From positions 1 to 11,856 of the forward strand of contig PBPX01000043.1 in assembly GCA_002724835.1 (NCBI GenBank): DNA of 11,856 nt, in the 5' to 3' direction. Every line of letters begins with the position of its first letter. The first letter of the stretch is position 1. This document shows, one piece after another, positions 1 through 9,568 of this stretch. The position numbers and the translations under genes were made by a program. Under the pieces are notes generated by a model. The model saw only the letters and a program-made list of their open reading frames with translations. It was not told where the DNA came from and searched no databases. Origin of the DNA: Actinomycetota bacterium. Its GTDB lineage: Bacteria; Actinomycetota; Acidimicrobiia; Actinomarinales; Actinomarinaceae.

Positions 1-1
1 T

Positions 2-265
2 TTTGAAAACTGTGAAGATATTTTAAGAAATGCTCTTCCAGAACAATTTGATTTAGATCCAGAAGTTGAAGCAGCTTTAGTGGATGCTTCTTTGGAATTT
101 TCACAATGTATGAGAGATCAGGGTATTGATTTTCCTGACCCTAAACCTGGAGAATTTGGATTTTTTGCTTTTAGAGATGCTGATATAGACTTCGGTTCGG
201 AAGCTGTACAAGAAGCTTTTGAAATCTGTCAGCCAGAAAATCCCCTAGAAAACTTAGATGATTAA
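2..265 (+). CDS. C-terminal part of a CMR/PDP-repeat secreted or lipoprotein-like protein (5' truncated)
   Basis: The frame is open from the left edge, so the true start lies outside the window; 87 residues are visible before TAA. The visible part begins with FENCEDIL, which looks like the end of one repeat. A second copy follows: acidic DPEVEAAL, then FSQCMRDQGIDFPDP, then FEICQP. The pattern 'FaqCMRexGvdfPDP ... feaCqp', often in two copies with paired cysteines, is typical of small actinobacterial lipoproteins or secreted proteins, often found near efflux genes. That is family knowledge recalled from pattern, not a search result. The GTG at position 80 is an internal valine codon, not the start, because the repeat continues upstream of it. 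The signal peptide or lipobox, if present, is outside the window. The biochemical role is unknown. The chain is very acidic, as is common for exported proteins of this group. Confidence 0.7.
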   Translation, partial: FENCEDILRNALPEQFDLDPEVEAALVDASLEFSQCMRDQGIDFPDPKPGEFGFFAFRDADIDFGSEAVQEAFEICQPENPLENLDD

Positions 266-304
266 ATTGAGAAAATGTCTTACTTACCTGTTTTAATTTA
301 AAGT

Positions 305-805
305 ATGGACAAAATAGAATTAGAAGGCTTAAAAGATGAAGAATTATTTGAGCTACAAAATTCAATTTCAGAAGTAATAAAACAACGAAATCTCAAAAAA
401 GGAGATGTGGATGAAATTATTGATTCAGCTTTTAATGTTGGATTCCCAAAAATGGATGCTGTGGGGCTAAATCCATGGGTCGAAGGTTCTCTTATAGTTT
501 GCCCAGGAGCAAGAATTGATAAATCTCAAACAAGGCATATTTGTAAATTTGTTGTTGCTGATGACGATTGGTCATGGGAATCTCAACACATGATTAGTGA
601 TGTTATAAGAAGAGATCAGTCATCCAAGCATTTTAAACAACATTCAATAACGTTAATTTCTCCATTTGAGGGCATGGTTTTACAGGTTATTTCTCAAAAG
701 TCTCAACAGGGAAAACATTTAGTTGATGGTATTGAGTCATTTACATTTAAAAATGGAAAACTTGAAAAAACAATGACAAAATCATCAAGATCTAGAGACC
801 ACTAA
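305..805 (+). CDS. Hypothetical protein of 166 residues
   Basis: I do not recognise this protein. It starts at ATG 305, 39 bases after the preceding stop, with no Shine-Dalgarno sequence. A TTTAAT at 292-297 lies seven bases before the ATG, so a leaderless start is possible. Residues 1-30 are charged and rich in Leu and Ile, and look helical (LKDEELFELQNSISEVI). Residues 45-100 hold aromatic and acidic patches: NPWVEGSLIVCPG with Cys66, and ICKFVVADDDWSWES with Cys80. The tail (155-166) is basic. No signal peptide or membrane segment is visible, so it is probably cytoplasmic. The even amino-acid composition, normal codon use and a full-length frame on the same strand between two real genes support a true gene. 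The two cysteines and the tryptophans could mark a binding site, but no function can be assigned. Confidence 0.75.
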   Translation: MDKIELEGLKDEELFELQNSISEVIKQRNLKKGDVDEIIDSAFNVGFPKMDAVGLNPWVEGSLIVCPGARIDKSQTRHICKFVVADDDWSWESQHMISDVIRRDQSSKHFKQHSITLISPFEGMVLQVISQKSQQGKHLVDGIESFTFKNGKLEKTMTKSSRSRDH

Positions 806-823
806 AGATTCTTTTTTCAATAT

Positions 824-829
824 TATAAT
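824..829 (+). promoter_or_regulatory. -10 element (TATAAT) for a leaderless ndh transcript
   Basis: A perfect TATAAT ends eight bases before the ndh ATG at 838. Transcription would therefore start at or within a base or two of the start codon. No Shine-Dalgarno sequence lies in between, which agrees with leaderless initiation. No good -35 hexamer is seen at the usual distance. Confidence 0.5.
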
Positions 830-837
830 TTAATTAA

Positions 838-2085
838 ATGGCAAAAATTATAATAATCGGAGGCGGTTTTGGAGGATTAAGCTTTCTTCAAAAAGCACGA
901 AAGAGTAAAAACGATTTCATATTAATCGATAAAACTAATCATCATTTATTTCAACCACTCTTGTACCAAGTCGCAACAGCAGTACTTTCACCAGCAGATA
1001 TAACAGTACCTCTTAGGAATTTATTCAAAAATGATAAAAACGTAAAAACAATTCTCTCAGAAGTAAAAGAAATAAATAAAGAAAAGAAGGAGATCACTTT
1101 AGATAATGCCGAAGTTATTAGTTATGACAAATTAATAATTAGTGCGGGTTCGAGCTATTCATTTTTTGGAAAAAACGAATGGTCTAAATTTGCTAAAGGA
1201 TTAAAAGTTATAAATGATGCATTAGACATAAGAGAAAAAATATTAAAAGCTTTTGAAAAAGCTGAAAACGAAAAAGATGAAAGAATAAGAAAAAAATATC
1301 TGAATTTTGTAATTATTGGAGGAGGACCAACAGGAGTTGAATTAGCAGGTTCAATTGCTGAAATAGCTTATAAAAACATGACTAAAGAATTTAGAAATTT
1401 TAGCAGCACAGATGCCAATATATATTTACTTGAAGCAGGAGACAGAATACTCCCATCCTATAGCGAGAGTCTTGCTAAAAAGTCTTATAAATTCCTAAAT
1501 GATTTAGGAGTAAAGGTAATGACAAAAGAGAGAGTAGAGAATATTGAAGAAATGAAGGTTACTACTAACAAGCAGGTTATTTATGCTGACAATATTATTT
1601 GGGCAGCAGGTAATGAGGCAAGCCCACTAATAAAATATCTAGACACAGAGACAGACAATGAAGGAAGAGCGGTAGTAAACCTAGATTGTTCTATAAAAGA
1701 AGACAACGAAGTCTATGTTATTGGTGATGCAGCAAACTTTAAAACAGAAAGTGGAGAATCATTACCAGGAATAGCTCCTGTCGCTATTCAACAAGGACGG
1801 TATGTTGCTCATAATATTAAAAAAAATATAGAAAAAGAAAAAAGAAAACCATTTAGATATTCAGATAAAGGCACGATGGCCACAATAGGAAGATTTAAAG
1901 CAATAGGAGTTGTAGGGAATTTTGAATTGGCAGGTTTTACAGCTTGGCTATTTTGGAGTTTAATTCACTTAGTGTATTTAATCGGTTACAGATCAAAGAT
2001 ACTTGTAGCTATAGAGTGGATTTTTGCTTACTTTTTTAACAAAAGAGGAACAAGGCTTATATACAGAGATGTAGATAAAAATTAA
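838..2085 (+). CDS. ndh: Type II NADH dehydrogenase (NADH:quinone oxidoreductase, non-proton-pumping)
   Basis: This 415-residue flavoprotein should transfer electrons from NADH to the membrane quinone pool without pumping protons. The N-terminal dinucleotide fold has GGGFGG at residues 8-13 for the FAD ADP moiety, followed by the family hallmark NHHLFQPLLYQVATAVLSP (34-52). A second Rossmann motif, GGGPTG (161-166), binds NADH, with acidic Glu199 at the end of the following beta strand. GDAANF (296-301) is the second FAD contact. GIAPVAIQQGRY (311-322) matches the quinone-site region. The C-terminus (about 366-400) is rich in Trp, Phe and Leu and ends with basic residues, as expected for the membrane-anchoring helices of NDH-2. 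Length is normal for the family. ATG 838 gives the usual short lead into the first beta strand, and TATAAT just upstream suggests a leaderless mRNA. The stop overlaps the mgtE stop on the opposite strand. Confidence 0.93.
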   Translation: MAKIIIIGGGFGGLSFLQKARKSKNDFILIDKTNHHLFQPLLYQVATAVLSPADITVPLRNLFKNDKNVKTILSEVKEINKEKKEITLDNAEVISYDKLIISAGSSYSFFGKNEWSKFAKGLKVINDALDIREKILKAFEKAENEKDERIRKKYLNFVIIGGGPTGVELAGSIAEIAYKNMTKEFRNFSSTDANIYLLEAGDRILPSYSESLAKKSYKFLNDLGVKVMTKERVENIEEMKVTTNKQVIYADNIIWAAGNEASPLIKYLDTETDNEGRAVVNLDCSIKEDNEVYVIGDAANFKTESGESLPGIAPVAIQQGRYVAHNIKKNIEKEKRKPFRYSDKGTMATIGRFKAIGVVGNFELAGFTAWLFWSLIHLVYLIGYRSKILVAIEWIFAYFFNKRGTRLIYRDVDKN

Positions 2086-3452
2086 ATTAATAAAAAAGCA
2101 ATTCCTAAAAAGCCTGCAAAACCTACAATATCAGTAACTAAAGTCAAAAATATATTTGAAGCTAAGGCTGGATCAAATTTTAATTTTTTAAGGATTAAAG
2201 GAATAGAAGCTCCAAAGAGATTACCAATCAAAATATTTCCAAAAACAGCAATGCTTAGTGACAAAGCATAGGCAGAAAGACCAACAATATTTAAAATCGC
2301 AAAAGATATAATTCCTATAATTAAACCATTTATAGATCCGATTAAAGATTGTTTGCCAATAACTTCAGCTACTCTCGCATCTGATACATCATTTCTAGCC
2401 AAAGCTCTAATAACTATGGCTAATGATTGAGCGCCCGAGTTACCTCCAACTAAAGCAACTACTGGCATCAATGCTGCAAGTAAAGCATCTCTAGCTATAG
2501 CTTCCTCAAATTGTGAGATTAAAACAGAGACAGTAAAAGCAAGAAGCAAATTAACAGCTATCCATGGAAGCCTTAGTTGAATTGATTTTTGTAGGGGTGT
2601 AAAAATTGTTTCTTCAGCTCCTGCACCAAAAGATTGAGAAAAGTCTTCTCCTATTTCAGATTCAATAATATCTAAAGCGCTGCTTACTGTTGTCTGTCCA
2701 ATTAGTTTATTGTTTTTATCAACCACAGGAAGAGCAAGTAACTCATATTGCTTTATTAGTCTTGCTGCTTCTTCTTGGTCTAATGATGGATTAATAAAAA
2801 TTGGATTTTGAATCATAACATTATCAATAGTTTCATCTTCATCTGCAAAAACTATTTCTCTAAATGAAACAACACCAGATAATCTATTTTCATCATCTAC
2901 TGAGTAAACATATAATAAGTCTTCAACATTTTCGTGAAGAGACTTTAATTCGACAAGAGCTTCTTTTATTGTTAAACCAATTGAAATTTTTGCAACTTCT
3001 TCAGACATAAGCCTTCCAACTGAATCCTTTGGATAAGCAAGTCTGCGATTTATATCCAACTTAGTTGATTTATCTAATATATCGAGTAAATCTTCAGCTT
3101 CATCAACAGTGCTTCTTTCAAAAACATCGACAACATCTTCTGTGTCCATCTCCCTAAAGATTTTTTCAACAGTTGTTTCTTTAAGGTTTTCTACAATTTC
3201 AATAATCGCCCTGGGTCTAAGTGATTCAAATATTTTAATAGACACGTCAATGGTAAGATCTTCTATTAAATGACTTGCATCACTAGGTTCAAACTCTTCT
3301 AAGGTGTCGGCAGAGTCAAAAGGGTCTGCTAACGCTATTTCATTCCAAATACTTAAATTTTTCTTTAGAAAGACAAGAGCATCTTCTGGACTTTTTCGTG
3401 CCAGCTCTCTTAGCTCCCCACCGTTTGTTGGCTCAATAATTTCTGAATTCAT
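2082..3452 (-). CDS. mgtE: Magnesium transporter/channel MgtE
   Basis: This 456-residue protein has the full MgtE layout. A helical Asp/Glu-rich N domain (about 30-135) is followed by two CBS domains (about 144-200 and 208-265), a connecting helix and five membrane segments (about 293-456). Within the membrane part, GGNSGAQS (336-343) is the conserved MgtE signature. Asp441 in LVTDIVGF corresponds to the pore aspartate needed for Mg2+ selection in characterised homologues. In this family the N and CBS domains sense cytoplasmic Mg2+ and close the pore when it is high. It is the third gene of a minus-strand run, 49 bases after the S9 peptidase stop. The gap has no Shine-Dalgarno sequence but has TAATAT ten bases before the ATG, so it may have its own promoter as well as read-through from the TPP-controlled genes. 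There is no room for an M-box riboswitch. Its stop overlaps that of ndh. Confidence 0.95.
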   Translation of the reverse strand: MNSEIIEPTNGGELRELARKSPEDALVFLKKNLSIWNEIALADPFDSADTLEEFEPSDASHLIEDLTIDVSIKIFESLRPRAIIEIVENLKETTVEKIFREMDTEDVVDVFERSTVDEAEDLLDILDKSTKLDINRRLAYPKDSVGRLMSEEVAKISIGLTIKEALVELKSLHENVEDLLYVYSVDDENRLSGVVSFREIVFADEDETIDNVMIQNPIFINPSLDQEEAARLIKQYELLALPVVDKNNKLIGQTTVSSALDIIESEIGEDFSQSFGAGAEETIFTPLQKSIQLRLPWIAVNLLLAFTVSVLISQFEEAIARDALLAALMPVVALVGGNSGAQSLAIVIRALARNDVSDARVAEVIGKQSLIGSINGLIIGIISFAILNIVGLSAYALSLSIAVFGNILIGNLFGASIPLILKKLKFDPALASNIFLTLVTDIVGFAGFLGIAFLLI

Positions 3453-3501
3453 AGATACTTCGATATTACTTTAGTTAGAAAAGAATGAGGTTAAAAGGTT
3501 T

Positions 3502-5376
3502 CTAGGTTAGGTGTTTATTATGCCAATTAATTATTGCTTCAAACCTTTGCTTTCTATGAACAGGTTGTCCTGACCTTGAAAGTTCATGGCTCTCTGCAGG
3601 AAACCTCATCATAGCTGATTCAACCCCTCTTCTTTTAAGGTTAGAAAAAAGTTGTTCACCTTGTTCAATAGGGCATCGATAATCATTTTCTGAATGAATT
3701 ATTAATGTTGGAGCAATTATATTATTTGCGTAAGTAATAGGACTTTTTTTCCTATATAGATTTATATTTTTATCGAATTCTTCTAATAAGTACATTTCTG
3801 GGAAAGTTATTCCAATATCTGAAGTTCCAACCATTGTTTCCCAATTTAAAAGGGCTCTTTCTACAACAGAAGACTTAAACATTTTTGGATAATGACTAAT
3901 TACCCAAGCAGTCATAAAGCCACCATAAGATCCCCCCATAATTCCGTAATTTTTATTAGAGATTTTCATTTCTTTTACCATTTCTTTAAACGCAGTAACC
4001 ACATCATGGGTATCATTTACTCCCCATTTGTTTCCACAAACATCTCTTAAAAATTTATGACCACGACCAGAAGACCCTCTAGGGTTGCAAGCAATTACAT
4101 TGAACCCAGCTTCAGCGTAGGTTTGGAATTCATCAAAATAGGTAAACCCATATTGAGCTGCCGGACCTCCGTGTATGCTTAGTAACGTAGGATTATTTTT
4201 GCCTACAAAAATACCCCAAGCATCAATTTTTGACTTACCTGTGTCTATTCTTTTATAAACACATTCATGTGACTTAGTTTTTTTATGAAAGCTTGAGTTT
4301 GCTTTAGAGGGTGTGTTTTCCCAATCTTCTAATTTTTTATCTTTTAGTTCATATATTTCATCTTGTTTTGAAAAAGTATTCGCAATTACTGAAATTCTAT
4401 TAGAACTTATTTCAAAATCAGAGATAGTCAATTGTTCATCAATTAATTTTTCAATATTTTTACCATCGCCCTTTCCAAGAAGTTGCTTCCCAGAATCTTC
4501 ATACAAAATATACATAAATGAGTCTCTACATTTAACATTTGTTATTGGTCTATCAAGATCTTGATAAAGGACAGTTGTTTTGCCCGTATCTTTTATTTGG
4601 TGAATACTTATATTTGTTGGCCATTCAAACCTTTTGTTTAACCCAATTCCATGAAGCTCATTATTAAAAATAAATAATTTCCCCCACATTCCTTCGGTAT
4701 GGATAGTTTCTAGTTTGCTGCCAGTTTTTTTTATAATTTTTTCATCAAGCATTGAACCTGATTCGTTGTAAGAGCTTGCTGTAAAATAAAGCGAGTTCCC
4801 TTTTTCAGCAATTGATCCAATAGATATAAACCCTTCTTTGTCTCCATCAATAATTTTTGAACTCTTTTGATTTGAAACGCTTACTTTATAAATATGGTTT
4901 CTCTTGTTAAAAATTATTCCACGAGTATCAAATCTGTATGGTATATTTTCAAGATATAGGGGCTCCATCTCTTTATCATCGATACTTTTAAAAGACGTAT
5001 CCCACTCTTTAGTAACTATGTAAATAAAATTATCTTTAGATGCCCAATAATAATTCTGAATGGTATCTTCTGTCTCAAATACAGTCGTTATTGAATTTCC
5101 ATCTTGGAAACAGAGAGAAGATATAGTTATTTTCTTACTTTTTTTTGTTGATTTTATATAGGAAAGTATTTTTTTATTATTTGAGTACTGCGGCATAGAA
5201 AAGTTACTTGCCTTAGTCCCTTTAAATTTTTTCCATGAATTTTTTGAATATCTCCAAAGCTCATTTTTATAGGTATTTTTATCAAAGTCCATCTTTGTGC
5301 TTTGTGCGACTATATTTTTATCATTAGATGTAATGTTTGATATTTTTCTATAATCAATTAAATTATTTGGTTTCAA
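3502..5376 (-). CDS. S9-family serine peptidase (prolyl oligopeptidase / acylaminoacyl-peptidase type)
   Basis: A 624-residue cytoplasmic serine hydrolase with no signal peptide. The N-terminal part (about 30-350) has the short beta-rich repeats of an S9 propeller. The C-terminal alpha/beta-hydrolase domain (about 375-624) carries HGGPAAQYG (402-410), NPRGSSGRG (431-439), the nucleophile Ser483 in GGSYGG (481-486), Asp565 in HSENDYRCP and His597 in AESHELS. This is a complete triad in the order and spacing of the S9C group, whose known members cleave short peptides or acylated amino acids. The start is TTG at 5374-5376, chosen because a perfect AGGAGG lies four bases upstream and no ATG is nearby. 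It follows the TPP-controlled symporter gene by 28 bases on the same strand, so co-transcription is likely. The substrate is unknown; a role in thiamin-precursor salvage would be inference from position only. Confidence 0.92.
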   Translation of the reverse strand: MKPNNLIDYRKISNITSNDKNIVAQSTKMDFDKNTYKNELWRYSKNSWKKFKGTKASNFSMPQYSNNKKILSYIKSTKKSKKITISSLCFQDGNSITTVFETEDTIQNYYWASKDNFIYIVTKEWDTSFKSIDDKEMEPLYLENIPYRFDTRGIIFNKRNHIYKVSVSNQKSSKIIDGDKEGFISIGSIAEKGNSLYFTASSYNESGSMLDEKIIKKTGSKLETIHTEGMWGKLFIFNNELHGIGLNKRFEWPTNISIHQIKDTGKTTVLYQDLDRPITNVKCRDSFMYILYEDSGKQLLGKGDGKNIEKLIDEQLTISDFEISSNRISVIANTFSKQDEIYELKDKKLEDWENTPSKANSSFHKKTKSHECVYKRIDTGKSKIDAWGIFVGKNNPTLLSIHGGPAAQYGFTYFDEFQTYAEAGFNVIACNPRGSSGRGHKFLRDVCGNKWGVNDTHDVVTAFKEMVKEMKISNKNYGIMGGSYGGFMTAWVISHYPKMFKSSVVERALLNWETMVGTSDIGITFPEMYLLEEFDKNINLYRKKSPITYANNIIAPTLIIHSENDYRCPIEQGEQLFSNLKRRGVESAMMRFPAESHELSRSGQPVHRKQRFEAIINWHNKHLT

Positions 5377-5380
5377 AAAA

Positions 5381-5386
5381 CCTCCT
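5381..5386 (-). promoter_or_regulatory. Strong Shine-Dalgarno sequence fixing the TTG start of the S9 peptidase
   Basis: AGGAGG on the minus strand lies four bases before TTG at 5376, within the 28-base gap after the symporter stop. It decides the unusual start codon. It also argues that the gene is translated from inside a longer transcript, unlike the leaderless genes nearby. Confidence 0.75.
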
Positions 5387-5404
5387 AAAAACTATAAAAC
5401 AAGT

Positions 5405-6769
5405 CTATTTTGAAATCTTATCGTAAGCAAATGTGAAGATTATAGAAGTTAAGAACCCAATAAGAAAAGTATTTAAGTCGGCTAAACCGTAAAGATCAGT
5501 TGGAATAAAAATACCCCCAGGGTTGTTTGTTAAATCAATAAATATATATCTATAAATAAATACAGATAACAAAGAAAAAACAAAAGGAACTAAAAGAAAA
5601 TGATCTTTAGATTTACTTTTTAATTTATAAAATGCAGGGAAAACCAAACATGTTGCAAGAAGATCTGCAACAAGAAAAACGGAAAATATATTTGTAACAT
5701 ATATTGCTGCAAATATTGCAAAATGAATAATTGCTAATGTTATGTACTGTGCTTCTTTTGCACCTTTCCCAATAAGATCTAAAGAAATTGTTGATGAGAT
5801 AGCATTTTCTAAAGTATCTATACTTGAAGCAACCAATAGCGTACAAAGAGAGACTAATAATACTGAAGAGAATAAATTTAATTCAAGTTGGCCAATAAAA
5901 CTAAGAGTCGGGCTCTCAAGACCCTTACCTGCTCCAACATCACCAGCTATGCCAATAAGTAAAATAGTTAAAAACGCACCGACTGCCGAAATGATAGATG
6001 CTTTTTTTATTGTCTTTTCATTTTTTGCAGAGAAAGTTCTTTGCCAGTAGCCTTGGGAAAATATTTCAGCAGCTGTAACAGCTAATATAACTGCAAGTGC
6101 AGATTTTAAACTGAATGTTTCAAAAGTTCCTAGTCCTCCTAATTTTGAGTAATTCACTATTTCAGAGAAAGAGTTCTGACTAAACCAAATACTAAATAAA
6201 ACTATTAACAATAAAATTATTCCAATGCCTTGAAACTTATCGGTTATATAAGAGGCTTTAAAACCAGATTTTTTTAAATAAGCATAAGTAAAGACGCCTA
6301 CAAGAATCATTATTCTTAAACCAGAAACTTCAGCAATTGACGGAAAAAGAAAGTTTATAGAAGCAAACTCTGCAACTAAAAAAGCACTCATATAAATTAT
6401 TGCAACTAGTGAGACTACTATTTGAGCTGTTCTTCCATATCTGATATTAATGAACTGTGGTAAGGTTGCTCCGCCTGGTACTAAATTTGCAATTTTTGGA
6501 CCTAGAAAAAATAAAAGTAAAAAAGGTGTAGCAGCCGATATAGCATAACCAATAACGTCATAACCTAAACCCCACCAAGCAACTTCGGCAGGAGCTGTAA
6601 GAATCCATAAGCCCATTCCACTTGCATAAAAGCTTAAAGAAACCCCAAATACATTTTCTGTTTTATTCAATACAAAATATTCATCTGTAGAAGACTTAAT
6701 TTTTGTAGTTCTAAAGTAGACCAGAAGTAGTATTAGCAAAATTATTCCATAAGCTATGACTGAATTCAT
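5405..6769 (-). CDS. thiV: Sodium:solute symporter, probable thiamin or thiamin-precursor importer (ThiV-like)
   Basis: A 454-residue, highly hydrophobic protein with about 12-13 membrane segments. It shows sodium:solute symporter (SSS, LeuT-fold) features: ASGMGLWILTAPAEVAWWG (49-67) in the first unwound helix region, LPQFINIRYGRTAQ (103-116), QGYWQRTFSAKNE (239-251) and SSIDTLENAISSTISLDLI (315-333), the last corresponding to the Na+-site helix. SSS proteins use the sodium gradient to import small solutes. The substrate call rests on the TPP riboswitch in the leader. An SSS transporter under a TPP riboswitch, named thiV, has been proposed in marine SAR11 bacteria to import the pyrimidine precursor HMP. 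Thiamin itself or another precursor is equally possible here. ATG 6769 is preceded by AAGGGAG eight bases upstream. It is the first gene of the likely operon with the S9 peptidase and perhaps mgtE. The family call is firm; the substrate is inferred and the symbol depends on the riboswitch. Confidence 0.85.
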   Translation of the reverse strand: MNSVIAYGIILLILLLVYFRTTKIKSSTDEYFVLNKTENVFGVSLSFYASGMGLWILTAPAEVAWWGLGYDVIGYAISAATPFLLLFFLGPKIANLVPGGATLPQFINIRYGRTAQIVVSLVAIIYMSAFLVAEFASINFLFPSIAEVSGLRIMILVGVFTYAYLKKSGFKASYITDKFQGIGIILLLIVLFSIWFSQNSFSEIVNYSKLGGLGTFETFSLKSALAVILAVTAAEIFSQGYWQRTFSAKNEKTIKKASIISAVGAFLTILLIGIAGDVGAGKGLESPTLSFIGQLELNLFSSVLLVSLCTLLVASSIDTLENAISSTISLDLIGKGAKEAQYITLAIIHFAIFAAIYVTNIFSVFLVADLLATCLVFPAFYKLKSKSKDHFLLVPFVFSLLSVFIYRYIFIDLTNNPGGIFIPTDLYGLADLNTFLIGFLTSIIFTFAYDKISK

Positions 6770-6772
6770 CTA

Positions 6773-6841
6773 CAATTCTCCCTTAAAAGATTGGGATCAA
6801 AGAACTGTTTTCCCTTCGTTGGAATTATCCAACAGGTTCTT
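6773..6841 (-). promoter_or_regulatory. Expression platform of the TPP riboswitch: alternative helices controlling the symporter ribosome binding site
   Basis: The Shine-Dalgarno AAGGGAG is at 6778-6784. A sequestering stem can form between CAGUUCUUU (6807-6799, read on the minus strand) and GGAGAAUUG (6781-6773): nine pairs, three of them G-U, burying the ribosome site. A competing helix can form between AAGAACCUGUU (6841-6831), which includes the conserved GAACCUG strand of the aptamer, and AACAGUUCUU (6809-6800). It has ten Watson-Crick pairs with one bulged C. The two helices share 6807-6800 and exclude each other. When TPP locks GAACCUG into the aptamer, the sequestering stem is favoured and translation stops. 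No U-rich terminator is seen, so control is probably translational. The pairings are read from sequence; the mechanism is inference. Confidence 0.65.
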
Positions 6842-6878
6842 ACGGTCGGTTTTTAACCCTCTCAGCCCTTGCTCCCGC
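6811..6878 (-). ncRNA. TPP riboswitch aptamer (THI element)
   Basis: Read on the minus strand, the leader holds the conserved TPP-aptamer blocks in order. GCGGGAGC starts at 6878 and CUGAGA lies at 6865-6860. A small GGUU-AAA-AACC hairpin precedes GACCGU. GAACCUG is at 6839-6833, GUUGGA-UAAU-UCCAAC forms P5 with the conserved UAAU loop, and GAAGGGA is at 6817-6811. GCGG can pair with CCGU for P2, and CCU with AGG for P4. The optional P3 arm is minimal: AGC and GCU around AAGG. The element binds thiamin pyrophosphate and usually turns off thiamin synthesis or uptake genes. It lies directly upstream of the SSS symporter and points toward it. The divergent EamA gene is not under its control. Confidence 0.93.
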
Positions 6879-6884
6879 TTTTTT

Positions 6885-6890
6885 ATATTA
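6885..6890 (-). promoter_or_regulatory. -10 element (TAATAT) for the riboswitch transcript
   Basis: TAATAT on the minus strand ends six bases before the first conserved aptamer base (GCGGG at 6878). Transcription would then start at the very beginning of the aptamer. No convincing -35 hexamer is visible, so confidence is modest. Confidence 0.45.
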
Positions 6891-6927
6891 CCCATAATCA
6901 TACTTCTTATTAGATAGTTTTCATAAA

Positions 6928-6936
6928 TGTTAAGCT
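6928..6936 (+). promoter_or_regulatory. Extended -10 element (TGTTAAGCT) for the EamA permease gene
   Basis: TGt followed by TAAGCT fits an extended -10 of TGN-TANNNT type. It ends six bases before ATG 6943, again implying a leaderless transcript. It lies back to back with the promoter of the riboswitch transcript. The -35 region is poor. Confidence 0.4.
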
Positions 6937-6942
6937 AGCAAA

Positions 6943-7857
6943 ATGGTGAAAAGAGAAAATAAAAAACTGGAAAAACCATCAATTTTTACTACGGTTATTT
7001 GTTTGTTTGCAGCAGCTTTCATGTGGGGATCTAGCAATGTTATTGCAAGAAGTTTACTAATTGAAGGTGTCGGCGAAATATTTCTTGTAACAGCAAGAGT
7101 TACTATCATTGGATCTTTATTATTCACTTATTATCTTATTTTTAATAGAGAAAAATTTAATAAAAAACTATTAAAAGAGGCCTCATTAGCAAGCTTCGCA
7201 TCTATATTTTTGGTTGGTTGGTCTTTTATTTTTTCACTTCAATATATTTCTTCTGGTTTAGTAACTTTAATGATTAGCTCAGCTCCAGTATTTACAGTTA
7301 TGTGGTTAAAAATATTACTTAAAGAGGAAAAGGTTTCAATCTCTAAGTACATTGCTATAGGCACAGGTTTCTCTGGAATTGCTTATCTTTTTATATCAAG
7401 AGAAACTGGATTACTAGATCAAGGAAATATATTTTTAGGAGGGTCACTAGCATTTATAGGGGTCCAAGGAATAGCTTTTGCAACCGTATTAAACAGAAAA
7501 TATGCTCCAAAGTATAAAGTTAGTAGCTGGTTAACATATCAATACCCTCTAGTTTTGATACTTTCTTGGGCTGCATTTTTTATTTCAGGTGTTGGAATAG
7601 AAAGCCTTGAACCTAGTCAGCAGTTAAGATTAGCAACACTAGTTGTATTCAACCTTGGAGCCTTTATGTCTTTCACCTGGTTAATTCAAAGAGTAAGCGC
7701 ATTGTTAGTGGCAACAGTAGATTATTTAGTCCCAGTAGTTGGAGTTACAGCTGGTGTAATATTTCTCAACGAAGTTTTTAATATAAATATTGTTATCTCT
7801 GGAATATTTATATTTATATCATTAGTTATAAGCACACGAGAAGAATTTTCAAATTAA
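6943..7857 (+). CDS. EamA-family (DMT superfamily) permease
   Basis: A 304-residue inner-membrane protein with about ten transmembrane helices in two EamA repeats. Repeat one runs from about 17 to 152, with AAAFMWGSSNVIARSL (23-38) and SAPVFTVMWLKILLKEE (113-129). Repeat two runs from about 165 to 298, with VPVVGVTAGVIFLNEVF (263-279). These small-residue and 'E' motifs at the end of helices 4 and 9 are the family signature. Members export or import amino acids, nucleobases or other metabolites, and the family alone does not reveal the substrate. The N-terminus has a short basic stretch before helix 1, consistent with the start at ATG 6943. The gene is divergent from the TPP-controlled symporter and its stop abuts the stop of the uracil-DNA glycosylase gene with no base between. 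A role in thiamin transport is not supported, because the riboswitch faces the other way. Confidence 0.9.
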   Translation: MVKRENKKLEKPSIFTTVICLFAAAFMWGSSNVIARSLLIEGVGEIFLVTARVTIIGSLLFTYYLIFNREKFNKKLLKEASLASFASIFLVGWSFIFSLQYISSGLVTLMISSAPVFTVMWLKILLKEEKVSISKYIAIGTGFSGIAYLFISRETGLLDQGNIFLGGSLAFIGVQGIAFATVLNRKYAPKYKVSSWLTYQYPLVLILSWAAFFISGVGIESLEPSQQLRLATLVVFNLGAFMSFTWLIQRVSALLVATVDYLVPVVGVTAGVIFLNEVFNINIVISGIFIFISLVISTREEFSN

Positions 7858-8436
7858 TTAAATTGAATTTAACTCTTTTTTAACTTTTTTCAAATCCTGC
7901 CAAGTCAGCCATTTAGGTTTACCCTTATTTTTTGAAGGGTTTCTAAGCAAGTAAGAAGGATGGAATATAGGCATATATTTAATATTATCTTTCTCAATCC
8001 ATTGACCTCTTATTTTTGATATTGGTTCATTAATTCCTAAAAATGATTGAACAGCAGTTGATCCAGCGAGAATAATAATTTTAGGCTTGAGTAAATTAAC
8101 CTGTTCATTTAACCAGGGCATGCATGCTTCTGACTCAGCAGCGCTAGGTTTTCGATTATTAGGAGGCCTACATTTTACAATATTTGTTATGTAGCAATCT
8201 TCTAAAGGATCTATGTCAACTGATGAAAGAGCAGTATCAAGCATTTTTCCAGCTCTTCCAACGAATGGTAAACCAGTAATGTCTTCCTGTTCGCCAGGAC
8301 CTTCACCTATTATTAGAACTTGAGCAGACTCATTTCCTTTTCCAACAACTACATTTTTTCTAGTTTTAGAAAGATTACAAGAAGTGCATTCAACACATTC
8401 AGAATTTAATTTTTTCAATGAAGAGTAATTTTTCAT
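7858..8436 (-). CDS. udg: Family 4 uracil-DNA glycosylase with [4Fe-4S] cluster
   Basis: A 192-residue DNA repair enzyme that removes uracil from DNA, starting base excision repair. Motif A is GEGPGEQED (44-52), followed by GLPFVGRAGKMLD (55-67). KCRPPNNRKP (88-97) and the late motif FHPSYLLR (158-165) complete the family 4 signature. The iron-sulfur ligands are expected at Cys17, Cys20, Cys89 and Cys105, in the spacing of known thermophile and actinobacterial members. Cys14 and Cys81 are extra cysteines. Motif A has GEGPG where many relatives have GEAPG. Length is typical of the short family 4 forms. ATG 8436 has no Shine-Dalgarno sequence; TAAACT at 8446-8451 could give a nearly leaderless message. 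The gene is convergent with the EamA gene, and upstream of it is the structured hairpin of 8459-8529. Confidence 0.94.
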   Translation of the reverse strand: MKNYSSLKKLNSECVECTSCNLSKTRKNVVVGKGNESAQVLIIGEGPGEQEDITGLPFVGRAGKMLDTALSSVDIDPLEDCYITNIVKCRPPNNRKPSAAESEACMPWLNEQVNLLKPKIIILAGSTAVQSFLGINEPISKIRGQWIEKDNIKYMPIFHPSYLLRNPSKNKGKPKWLTWQDLKKVKKELNSI

Positions 8437-8445
8437 ATATAGCTA

Positions 8446-8451
8446 AGTTTA
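8446..8451 (-). promoter_or_regulatory. Possible -10 element (TAAACT) for the uracil-DNA glycosylase gene
   Basis: TAAACT on the minus strand lies nine bases before ATG 8436 and just after the U run of the upstream hairpin. If used, the glycosylase has its own short-leader transcript and the hairpin ends an earlier one. The evidence is a motif match of TANNNT type only. Confidence 0.3.
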
Positions 8452-8458
8452 ATACCCC

Positions 8459-8529
8459 AAAAAATGAGAAAACCCTTGAATACTCCGCTTATTCAGTTTC
8501 CTGAATTAACTTGCTTCAAGGGTTATCTC
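8459..8529 (-). terminator. Strong intrinsic terminator-like hairpin with GAAA cap and U run
   Basis: On the minus strand, GAGAUAACCCUUGAA (8529-8515) pairs with UUCAAGGGUUUUCUC (8480-8466), fourteen pairs with a single U-U mismatch. Inside, after a small GCAA/GGAGUA internal loop, AUUCAG and CUGAAU (8506-8501 and 8496-8491) close a GAAA tetraloop, with flanking GUU/AGC pairs. One A follows and then six U residues (8464-8459). This is a textbook intrinsic terminator for minus-strand transcription. It would end the cbiM message (176 bases beyond its stop) or a small RNA starting in the gap. No U run exists on the plus-strand side, so it is one-directional. Confidence 0.65.
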
Positions 8530-8578
8530 TAACCCTTCTTGTAATGATCCTCTATAAAGATTTTCTTCACAAAAAGTT
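8459..8578 (-). ncRNA. Candidate small structured RNA or attenuator in the cbiM-udg gap
   Basis: Besides the terminator hairpin, AAGGGUUA-GAGA-UAACCCUU (8537-8518) forms a perfect 8-bp stem with a GNRA loop. It reuses the 5' arm of the terminator, so the two folds exclude each other like an antiterminator and terminator pair. A possible promoter lies upstream on the same strand: TTGATT at 8613-8608, 17 bases, then TATCTT at 8590-8585, which would start RNA near 8578. This gives a transcript of about 120 bases ending in the U run. It does not match the riboswitch classes or the SRP, tmRNA or 6S cores I can recall. No convincing small reading frame was noticed in the part read. It could equally be the 3' UTR of cbiM. 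The 5' end is a guess. Confidence 0.35.
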
Positions 8579-8641: not shown

Positions 8642-9568
8642 TTATACCTTTTTTCGATATTTTAAAACTATATTGCTCACACCAATTACAACAACGACTC
8701 CAAGTACAGCACTGAGAGCTGTTGAGAGAAAGTCGTTGTTCAGCCCTGATATGCCATAGTCGTCTAGTAATAAAACTATTCCACTACTTTCAGAGAATCC
8801 GAAATCACCAGCAACTGATTCTAGTCCATCGGGAGATGAAGAAGCATAAGGTGTAATTAGAGTTAGGCAAAGTAGTAAAAATATAAATAGCCCATAAAAA
8901 GAAGATTTATTATTATTTTTATCTTTATTAGCTTTTATATAAATTAAGTCAGATCTCACTCTTAATAATAAAGAAACTATTAACGCGGTTATAACTCCTT
9001 CCCCTAAACCAATTAGAAGATGAGATGACACCATTGCAATCAACACACTACCTAGTGGGACAGAAACGGTTCCACCAAGTGCATACTCAAATACAAAAGC
9101 AATTGACGAAAACACAACAGATAAAATTCCTGCCACAATAGAGCCTGAAATTATTGAAATATTAGCTTCTCCAAACAATTTCTTCCAAGAAGAAATTGTT
9201 AGCCATCCGACAAGAGAAGTAATAATTGCCATATTTAGAACATTTACCCCCAAAGCACTCAATCCACCGTCAGCAAACAGTAATGATTGGATAACAACAA
9301 CAATTGAAATGCAAATAATTCCAAGATTAGGACCAAGTACAATAACAGCTAAAGCTCCTCCAAGTAAATGCCCACTGGTGCCAGCTGCTATTGGAAAGTT
9401 AATCATCTGTAGAACAAAGATTAAAGCAGACATCATACCCGTTAATGCTATTAATTTATCAGCTACCAAGCTTTTGGCGCTTCTAATATAAGCCCATAGT
9501 GTAGCAAAACTAATGACTCCTGTTCCAATTGAAACGGGAGCATTTATAAAACCATCAGGTACATGCAT
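8642..9568 (-). CDS. cbiM: CbiM-type cobalt/nickel transport substrate-binding membrane protein with C-terminal PDGLE segment
   Basis: A 308-residue membrane protein. It begins MHVPDGFI, the CbiM/NikM signature in which the free amino end and His2 bind the metal. His67 in SGHLLGG (65-71) matches the second metal histidine, and SSHLLIGLGEG (181-191) is the other conserved stretch. The core (1-205) has about six membrane segments. A linker rich in Lys and Asn (213-222) leads to a C-terminal unit with one helix, SSSPDGLESVAGDFGF (243-258), and a last helix. This is the PDGLE/CbiN-like part, so it is a CbiM-CbiN style fusion. Such proteins normally work with CbiQ (or NikQ) and the ATPase CbiO in an ECF-type importer, but neither is in the window. 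Fused MN forms have been reported to give some uptake alone. ATG 9568 is fixed by the invariant N-terminus and is preceded by a near-ideal promoter. No cobalamin riboswitch is seen. Co2+ versus Ni2+ cannot be decided. Confidence 0.92.
   Translation of the reverse strand: MHVPDGFINAPVSIGTGVISFATLWAYIRSAKSLVADKLIALTGMMSALIFVLQMINFPIAAGTSGHLLGGALAVIVLGPNLGIICISIVVVIQSLLFADGGLSALGVNVLNMAIITSLVGWLTISSWKKLFGEANISIISGSIVAGILSVVFSSIAFVFEYALGGTVSVPLGSVLIAMVSSHLLIGLGEGVITALIVSLLLRVRSDLIYIKANKDKNNNKSSFYGLFIFLLLCLTLITPYASSSPDGLESVAGDFGFSESSGIVLLLDDYGISGLNNDFLSTALSAVLGVVVVIGVSNIVLKYRKKV

Follow-up and report, generated by a model that had tools for sequence, protein, structure and literature searches.

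The DNA analysed here, called the window, is 11,856 nucleotides long and comes from Candidatus Actinomarina. The closest named relative of its symporter is 97% identical and comes from a genome with the title OCS155 cluster bacterium; the remaining six named symporter loci that were found are all titled Candidatus Actinomarina. These relatives bear out the actinobacterial context that a preliminary description of the window had considered likely. The minus strand carries a leader with a TPP riboswitch aptamer, a sodium:solute symporter (SSS) gene and an S9-family peptidase gene (Table 1). In all seven named Actinomarina loci the peptidase gene lies behind the symporter and an EamA gene is located divergently upstream. 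The peptidase gene and the symporter possibly share one transcript, in which case the peptidase may also be under TPP control. A review gives the median intergenic length in Ca. A. minuta as three bases (PMC4285135), so a long and conserved leader is noteworthy in this lineage.

Table 1. Features of the symporter locus, in window coordinates.
Feature	Position	Strand	Basis or remark
S9-family peptidase gene	3502..5376	-	Pfam PF00326; 28 nt after symporter
SSS/SLC5-fold sodium:solute symporter gene, 454 aa, proposed thiamin importer	5405..6769	-	
Shine-Dalgarno-like AAGGGAG	6778..6784	-	sequence; 8 nt before ATG at 6769
UCCC leader element, candidate anti-Shine-Dalgarno strand	6793..6796	-	sequence reading
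TPP riboswitch aptamer core, variant without P1	6811..6878	-	RF00059 match 6794-6888 minus
P2	6875-6878 with 6842-6845	-	
J3-2 UGAGA	6860-6864	-	
P4	6834-6836 with 6813-6815	-	
P5	6829-6832 with 6819-6822	-	
Ligand-region nucleotides	G6833, C6818, G6817	-	
Putative -10 box TAATAT	6885..6890	-	7 nt before CGGGAGC; predicted transcription start near 6879

Window positions 1-8548 are duplicated on another contig of the same genome (C18) with 99.45% identity over 8548 bases. The duplicate is either redundant assembly or a mix of two strains. A second riboswitch in this genome was rejected because the two matches are one locus assembled twice. Elsewhere in the window, positions 8642-9568 encode a CbiM cobalt permease carrying a PDGLE domain at its C-terminus, a CbiM-CbiN-like fusion, and the protein encoded at 10791-11501 matches PF11927, the alpha subunit family of haem-dependent oxidative N-demethylase.

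Read on the minus strand from 6878 to 6811, the leader gives GCGGGAGC..GGCUGAGAGGGUU..AACCGACCGUAAGAACCUGUUGGAUAAUUCCAACGAAGGGA and ends about 40 nt before the ATG. CUGAGA, GAACCUG, the P5 hairpin and GAAGGGA thus stand in front of the symporter gene in the order and orientation described earlier. The proposed check against the Rfam TPP model was successful only in part. Nothing was found at the gathering cut-off, which is the curator's threshold, and no element of any other Rfam family passed its own threshold anywhere in the window. With permissive settings, RF00059 matched at E 4.6e-7 (501 bases searched), though its score of 42.5 bits falls short of the 54.3-bit cut-off; the search of the window's own genome gave an E-value of 2.5e-7. 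In the Actinomarina order the model matched in 33 of 42 genomes and exceeded the cut-off in four, with a best score of 54.8 bits. In the class it matched in 213 of 246 genomes and exceeded the cut-off in 145, which suggests that sub-threshold TPP elements are common there and are not peculiar to Actinomarina. The core of the Actinomarina aptamer is nearly invariant across the genus while its flanks diverge. Together with the permissive match, this conservation indicates that the TPP riboswitch suggested at this position is real. All 70 fetched Actinomarina stretches with the element fit the pattern used to pick alignment rows, a pattern that itself contains UGAGA; the G013 element is outside these stretches.

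Among 25 distinct aptamers, 17 of the 19 consensus pairs in P2 through P5 are canonical in every sequence; the two exceptions are the outermost P2 pair (canonical in 20 aptamers) and the innermost P5 pair (in 22). P3 and P5 show changes that preserve pairing. P3, which had been described as reduced to about three pairs, indeed has three pairs in the consensus and four in the fold of the window. The nucleotides reported as conserved around the TPP ligand are UGAGA, U59-A80, G60, C77 and G78 (PMC3764141), and all of them are present in the window and in the aligned Actinomarina aptamers.

The Actinomarina element differs from the family in three shared features. The first is P1, which has none of its five Rfam pairs in the window; cmscan alignments of nine further loci show three pairs at the most. 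The 32 distinct sequences average 1.69 of the 5 pairs, no improvement on the 1.91 that mismatched partners give. A conserved P1 shifted in register was rejected: among offsets 0-8 the maximum is 2.34 of 5 at offset 5, where eight of 32 sequences reach at least four pairs. The longest possible P1 helix has a mean of 3.62 pairs against 3.75 for shuffled partners (21 distinct flank pairs). Corresponding values are 5.10 against 4.05 for the actinobacterial TPP-SSS leaders, where seven of ten allow at least five pairs (the eleventh leader, L120, was not parsed and is left out), and 4.10 against 3.88 by chance for other elements of the class, where 13 of 29 allow at least five. In the Rfam register, other elements have a mean of 2.61 pairs and reach at least four in 7 of 31 cases (the Halomonas and G248 elements counted, L088 left out). 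A weak P1 is thus widespread in the class, most extremely so in Actinomarina. The unparsed L120 leader (around 2853-2963) lacks the expected GGGAGC strand and has a repeated GTAGTGACC.GATCA close by.

The second difference is in J4/5, where two nucleotides are missing so that CCUG runs directly into P5. These nucleotides are kept in all 11 TPP-SSS leaders from the phylum. Over 31 other parsed elements (the window's twin row, L084, excluded) 30 keep both, and L109 keeps one and has a form intermediate towards that of Actinomarina. The aptamer may have changed to the point of binding another ligand, or of binding TPP weakly; the loss of P1, with at least four Rfam pairs in none of the 32 sequences, and the J4/5 loss in 32 of 32 both favor this. 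Nevertheless, all nucleotides reported for the pyrimidine and pyrophosphate regions are kept and the lost positions are outside the nucleotides listed in the relevant section of PMC3764141, so such a change is considered unlikely. P1 is usual in the TPP class, does not touch the ligand and is regarded as the regulated helix (PMC11477058). Since P1 is missing, the element is classified as a variant of the TPP class that would work like it and not as a standard member. No TPP riboswitch lacking P1 was seen among the titles and abstract openings listed from the open-licence literature.

The third difference lies in front of the aptamer. Of 32 distinct upstream sequences, 30 have TANNAT exactly 8 nt ahead of CGGGAGC; in the other two, the window among them, the distance is 7 nt. 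T at column -3 and A at column -2 each occur in 27 of 32; conservation extends to columns -16 and -15 and to an A-rich block from about -42 to -38, and most other columns are near background. Other TPP elements have a TANNNT box 10-21 nt away. If TANNAT is read as a -10 box, the predicted transcript start may be at or beside P2. The window has a second box, TATGAT (6902-6897), 12 nt further upstream. This box is the pick of a consensus scan, which found one site against 0.9 expected by chance.

Because P1 is described as the regulated helix of TPP riboswitches and is missing here, another strand would have to do the switching. A candidate is the UCCC element, which is complementary to GGGA at 6779-6782, 6811-6814 and 6873-6876. 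CCC occurs at this place in 30 of 32 leaders (counted by eye) and is missing from L008 and L019. Pairing of UCCC with the 3' GGGA of the aptamer is statistically weak, with p<0.05 in 6 of 32 leaders and a median p of 0.365. UCCC could hypothetically be the anti-sequestor partner of this GGGA. No intrinsic terminator was found between 6700 and 6960, and translation attenuation is said to be the most common mode outside the Firmicutes (PMC2258182). The minimum-energy folds of some free leaders (L005, L011 and L028) pair GGGA in the 5' strand of P2 with UCCC. In the free leader such pairing would keep UCCC away from the Shine-Dalgarno site; once the aptamer forms, UCCC would be able to pair with that site. 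When the aptamer was constrained to form, the computed accessibility of the Shine-Dalgarno site fell in 22 of 31 leaders (in two by only 0.01), was equal in two and rose in seven, and one further sequence has no recognised site. The window is one of the two leaders with equal accessibility. These results are mixed: a switch is neither demonstrated nor, for the window, even suggested, and strand exchange between UCCC and GGGA is put forward as a hypothesis.

The element and the SSS gene are strictly linked. Both are present in the same 33 and missing from the same 9 of 42 genomes. Eight of the nine genomes without them are less than 80% complete. The ninth, G019, is 90% complete and has neither the element nor the gene, yet it has a thiamin pyrophosphokinase (TPK); therefore, either another supply exists or the assembly misses the region. 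The scan covered 39 records, made up of the window and 38 loci, some of which overlap or share a genome. In 38 of the 39 the SSS gene adjoins the element, and the remaining record, L013, ends at a contig end.

Relatives of the symporter are rare in the class and more widespread in the phylum. Outside the genus, 1 of 353 genomes of the class has a relative at an E-value of 1e-10 or better, while 19 of 396 genomes of the phylum (own genome included) match a profile based on Marine Group II proteins at E 1e-60. In the best 11 of the 18 other matching phylum genomes, a TPP element is located directly upstream on the strand of the gene in every case; seven of these elements are over the cut-off and the lowest has 45.2 bits. 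Judged from these sequences, TPP-controlled SSS genes recur in Actinomycetota. The expectation that this locus would extend a SAR11-type system to an actinobacterium holds for the host, but the Actinomarina case is not isolated. The best plasmid relative comes from Halomonas (27% identity in the alignment), and its TPP element (65.1 bits) overlaps the start of the gene. The sole relative in the class, in the Acidimicrobiia genome G248, ends a cluster that reads thiE-DAO(thiO)-thiS/thiG-thiE-thiD by Pfam, thiO being a DAO-type frame named by its position. A TPP element of 64.6 bits heads this cluster, and the genome (84% complete) has no ThiC match. No symporter relative is encoded on the viral contigs. 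In six genomes of family f71 (G405, G419, G534, G544, G592 and G641) the SSS matches stop at about profile position 417 in frames of 487-697 aa; these proteins possibly have another architecture.

The window protein has the SSS fold over its whole length. Pfam SSF (PF00474) has no match to it at E-values up to 1 and matches one of nine alignment members; TIGR00813 matches it below its cut-off. A profile of 37 rows matches SLC5 structures with a best E-value of 1.9e-10. It is conceivable that the symporter carries an unrelated solute such as choline, proline or urea, with the riboswitch left over from an ancestor as a remnant. In the structural comparison the choline carrier CHT1 and the urea carrier DUR3 do rank best, though SLC5 structures score high generally, and the protein, if named at its source at all, is labelled hypothetical protein, Na+/proline symporter or SSS family symporter. 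A remnant would not be expected to keep its core nearly invariant in 25 distinct aptamers, which shows no decay, nor would TPP elements be expected in front of relatives of 30-37% identity in other Actinomycetota and in Halomonas. An unrelated cargo is therefore very improbable.

The sixth transmembrane helix (TM6) may be informative about the cargo. The structure model has a helix break in TM6 at residues 235-237. With the Actinomarina protein as query, all 120 best-listed of 1584 proteins read AE.FS.G.WQR, abbreviated here as E..S. For the G248 relative, 115 of the best 120 of 1399 proteins read AN.FH.G.WQR (N..H), one reads E..S and four are without the motif, so the N..H reading is found in 115 of 116 listed actinobacterial-type relatives with the motif. 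It is also found in 11 of 11 fetched actinobacterial relatives that are linked to TPP elements. The single E..S protein in this list, P0237, has close relatives that bear the name of Marine Group II archaea (Thalassarchaeum), and the best 120 of its 1048 relatives, itself included, are all E..S. Among the matches listed, the only other bearers of the E/S pair are Marine Group II archaea and their close relatives. No protein named SAR11 is among the best 120 of the 1399 (G248) and 1048 (P0237) proteins, most of which are unnamed. In a tree of 22 rows, whose root is a drawing aid, Actinomarina is on a long branch (2.06) and the archaeal-type rows (91/89) and N..H rows (100/100) are apart. HMMER aligns the TM6 segment with ANLYYWGF of vSGLT, in which N and the second Y presumably contact or gate the sugar. 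An acidic residue in TM6 would suit a cationic cargo such as thiamin, and the exchange of N/H for E/S could possibly mark a change of specificity.

Residue markers have been given for ThiV/SSSP proteins as Y78, D139 and F254 followed by His or a polar residue, in SiaT numbering (PMC11452348). SiaT itself was among the hits of profile and sequence searches. All 14 Actinomarina-type rows share Y74 and an F236 with S behind it, which may correspond to two of these markers. The TM3 segment has Glu133 as its acidic residue instead of an Asp.

The thiamin genes of Actinomarina restrict which B1 compound could be used. ThiC was found in 0 of 41 Actinomarina genomes (13 of 14 controls) and ThiE (PF02581) in 0 of 41 (11 of 14 controls). 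The genomes are 60-94% complete, so these absences rest on the repeated zero. TPK was found in 39 of the 41 genomes and the TPP-enzyme domain Transket_pyr in 37. ThiB is over its cut-off in 0 of 41 genomes and has weak matches in 20. The presence of ThiG was rejected: its matches in 36 of 41 genomes cover just 44-61 of 247 positions. In the window's own genome the matched frame has 308 aa and is followed at once by a PdxT-like frame, so the match is most simply PdxS, and the ThiG matches look like PdxS on this reading.

Since the pyrophosphokinase is present and a TMP synthase is missing, the cell could use thiamin but not HMP. Import of HMP or a related pyrimidine, with the cell completing thiamin, has been proposed for SAR11 ThiV, an SSS protein under a TPP riboswitch that is a likely HMP importer (PMC11452348). 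The position of the G248 relative at the end of a thi cluster, in a genome without a ThiC match, points in the same direction. However, HMP would be unusable without TMP synthase, ThiE and ThiC are absent from all 41 genomes with working controls, and Actinomarina has E and S at the TM6 positions where the G248-type relatives have N and H. Import of HMP is thus quite unlikely here, and intact thiamin is the likelier cargo. The preliminary description had left the choice between thiamin and a precursor. The link to thiamin holds, given the gene linkage and the TPP elements in front of relatives, but a precursor is unlikely with ThiC and ThiE absent and the pyrophosphokinase present.

It is therefore likely that the leader is a TPP riboswitch that represses translation of an SSS importer of intact thiamin in a cell that does not produce thiamin. 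This reading draws on the aptamer core, the strict gene linkage, the SSS fold, the lack of ThiC and ThiE matches and the matches to pyrophosphokinase and TPP-enzyme domains. The transporter, presumably coupled to sodium, would bring intact thiamin or its phosphate ester into the cell and the pyrophosphokinase would convert imported thiamin to TPP. When plentiful, TPP would bind the aptamer and turn the leader OFF, repressing translation of the transporter and closing the loop. A more detailed version is tentative and somewhat doubtful: the riboswitch would lack P1 and start at P2, either GGGA in the 5' strand of P2 or the 3' strand of P4 would swap partners with UCCC, and the change from N/H to E/S in TM6 would have turned a pyrimidine-type carrier into a thiamin-type one. 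The trimmed aptamer and the E..S reading of TM6 are the two features that look new.

The vitamin dependence of the order has been likened to that of other streamlined microbes, in a text whose relevant part names no B1 transporter (PMC7771536). In a coastal study most Actinobacteria there appear to be reliant on ThiB, and Actinomarina is unmentioned in the corresponding section (PMC10881298). In the open-licence literature searched, a thiamin riboswitch or transporter of Actinomarina is undescribed in the sections covered (PMC7771536, PMC12008989, PMC5069720, PMC4285135). The locus therefore offers a candidate B1 importer for a streamlined marine lineage whose B1 supply is undescribed in the literature found. 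It also leads to the prediction that Actinomarina draws on intact thiamin and SAR11 on HMP, such that two streamlined plankton groups would divide the B1 compounds between them. If the trimmed aptamer works, a TPP riboswitch can dispense with P1, which bears on the minimal size of a riboswitch.

The Actinomarina leader resembles the RF00059 THI element in P2, P3, the GC pairs at the place of P3a, P4, P5, UGAGA and the equivalents of G60, C77 and G78, and it is located upstream of a thiamin-related gene. It differs in having no conserved P1, two nucleotides fewer in J4/5 and a -10-like box directly before P2, and most Actinomarina elements are below the Rfam cut-off, which is passed in 4 of 42 genomes. 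In other Actinomycetota and in Halomonas, the TPP-linked SSS genes (L081, L083, L120-L129 and L131) are homologous with 30-37% local identity, and a TPP element is upstream of the gene or, in G248, of the cluster. The leaders of the other Actinomycetota differ from that of Actinomarina in that they keep J4/5 and that a P1 of at least five pairs is possible in most of them (7 of 10), and their proteins have N..H in TM6 (11 of 11). Marine Group II proteins of the SSS type (Thalassarchaeum, P0268, P0260 and relatives) share E..S in TM6 in 120 of 120 listed and are 35-38% identical to the window protein.

Precedents for an SSS-type protein in B1 uptake have been described as SAR11 ThiV and algal SSSP/SSSQ (PMC4260697, PMC11452348) and fungal Dur31 (PMC5997356). 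The ThiV/SSSP proteins of SAR11, Methylobacillus and algae share with the window the SSS fold and a TPP riboswitch in front of the gene (PMC4260697, PMC11452348). SAR11, like Actinomarina, is a streamlined marine host. Unlike the SAR11 case, Actinomarina has no ThiE or ThiC matches, so HMP would be useless to it. Dur31 of Candida is a protein with an SSF domain under a TPP riboswitch, which its authors describe as a thiamin transporter (PMC5997356). It differs from the Actinomarina system in being eukaryotic and in a riboswitch that acts on splicing. The Actinomarina system is a trimmed TPP riboswitch in front of a ThiV-like SSS transporter whose cargo is most likely intact thiamin.
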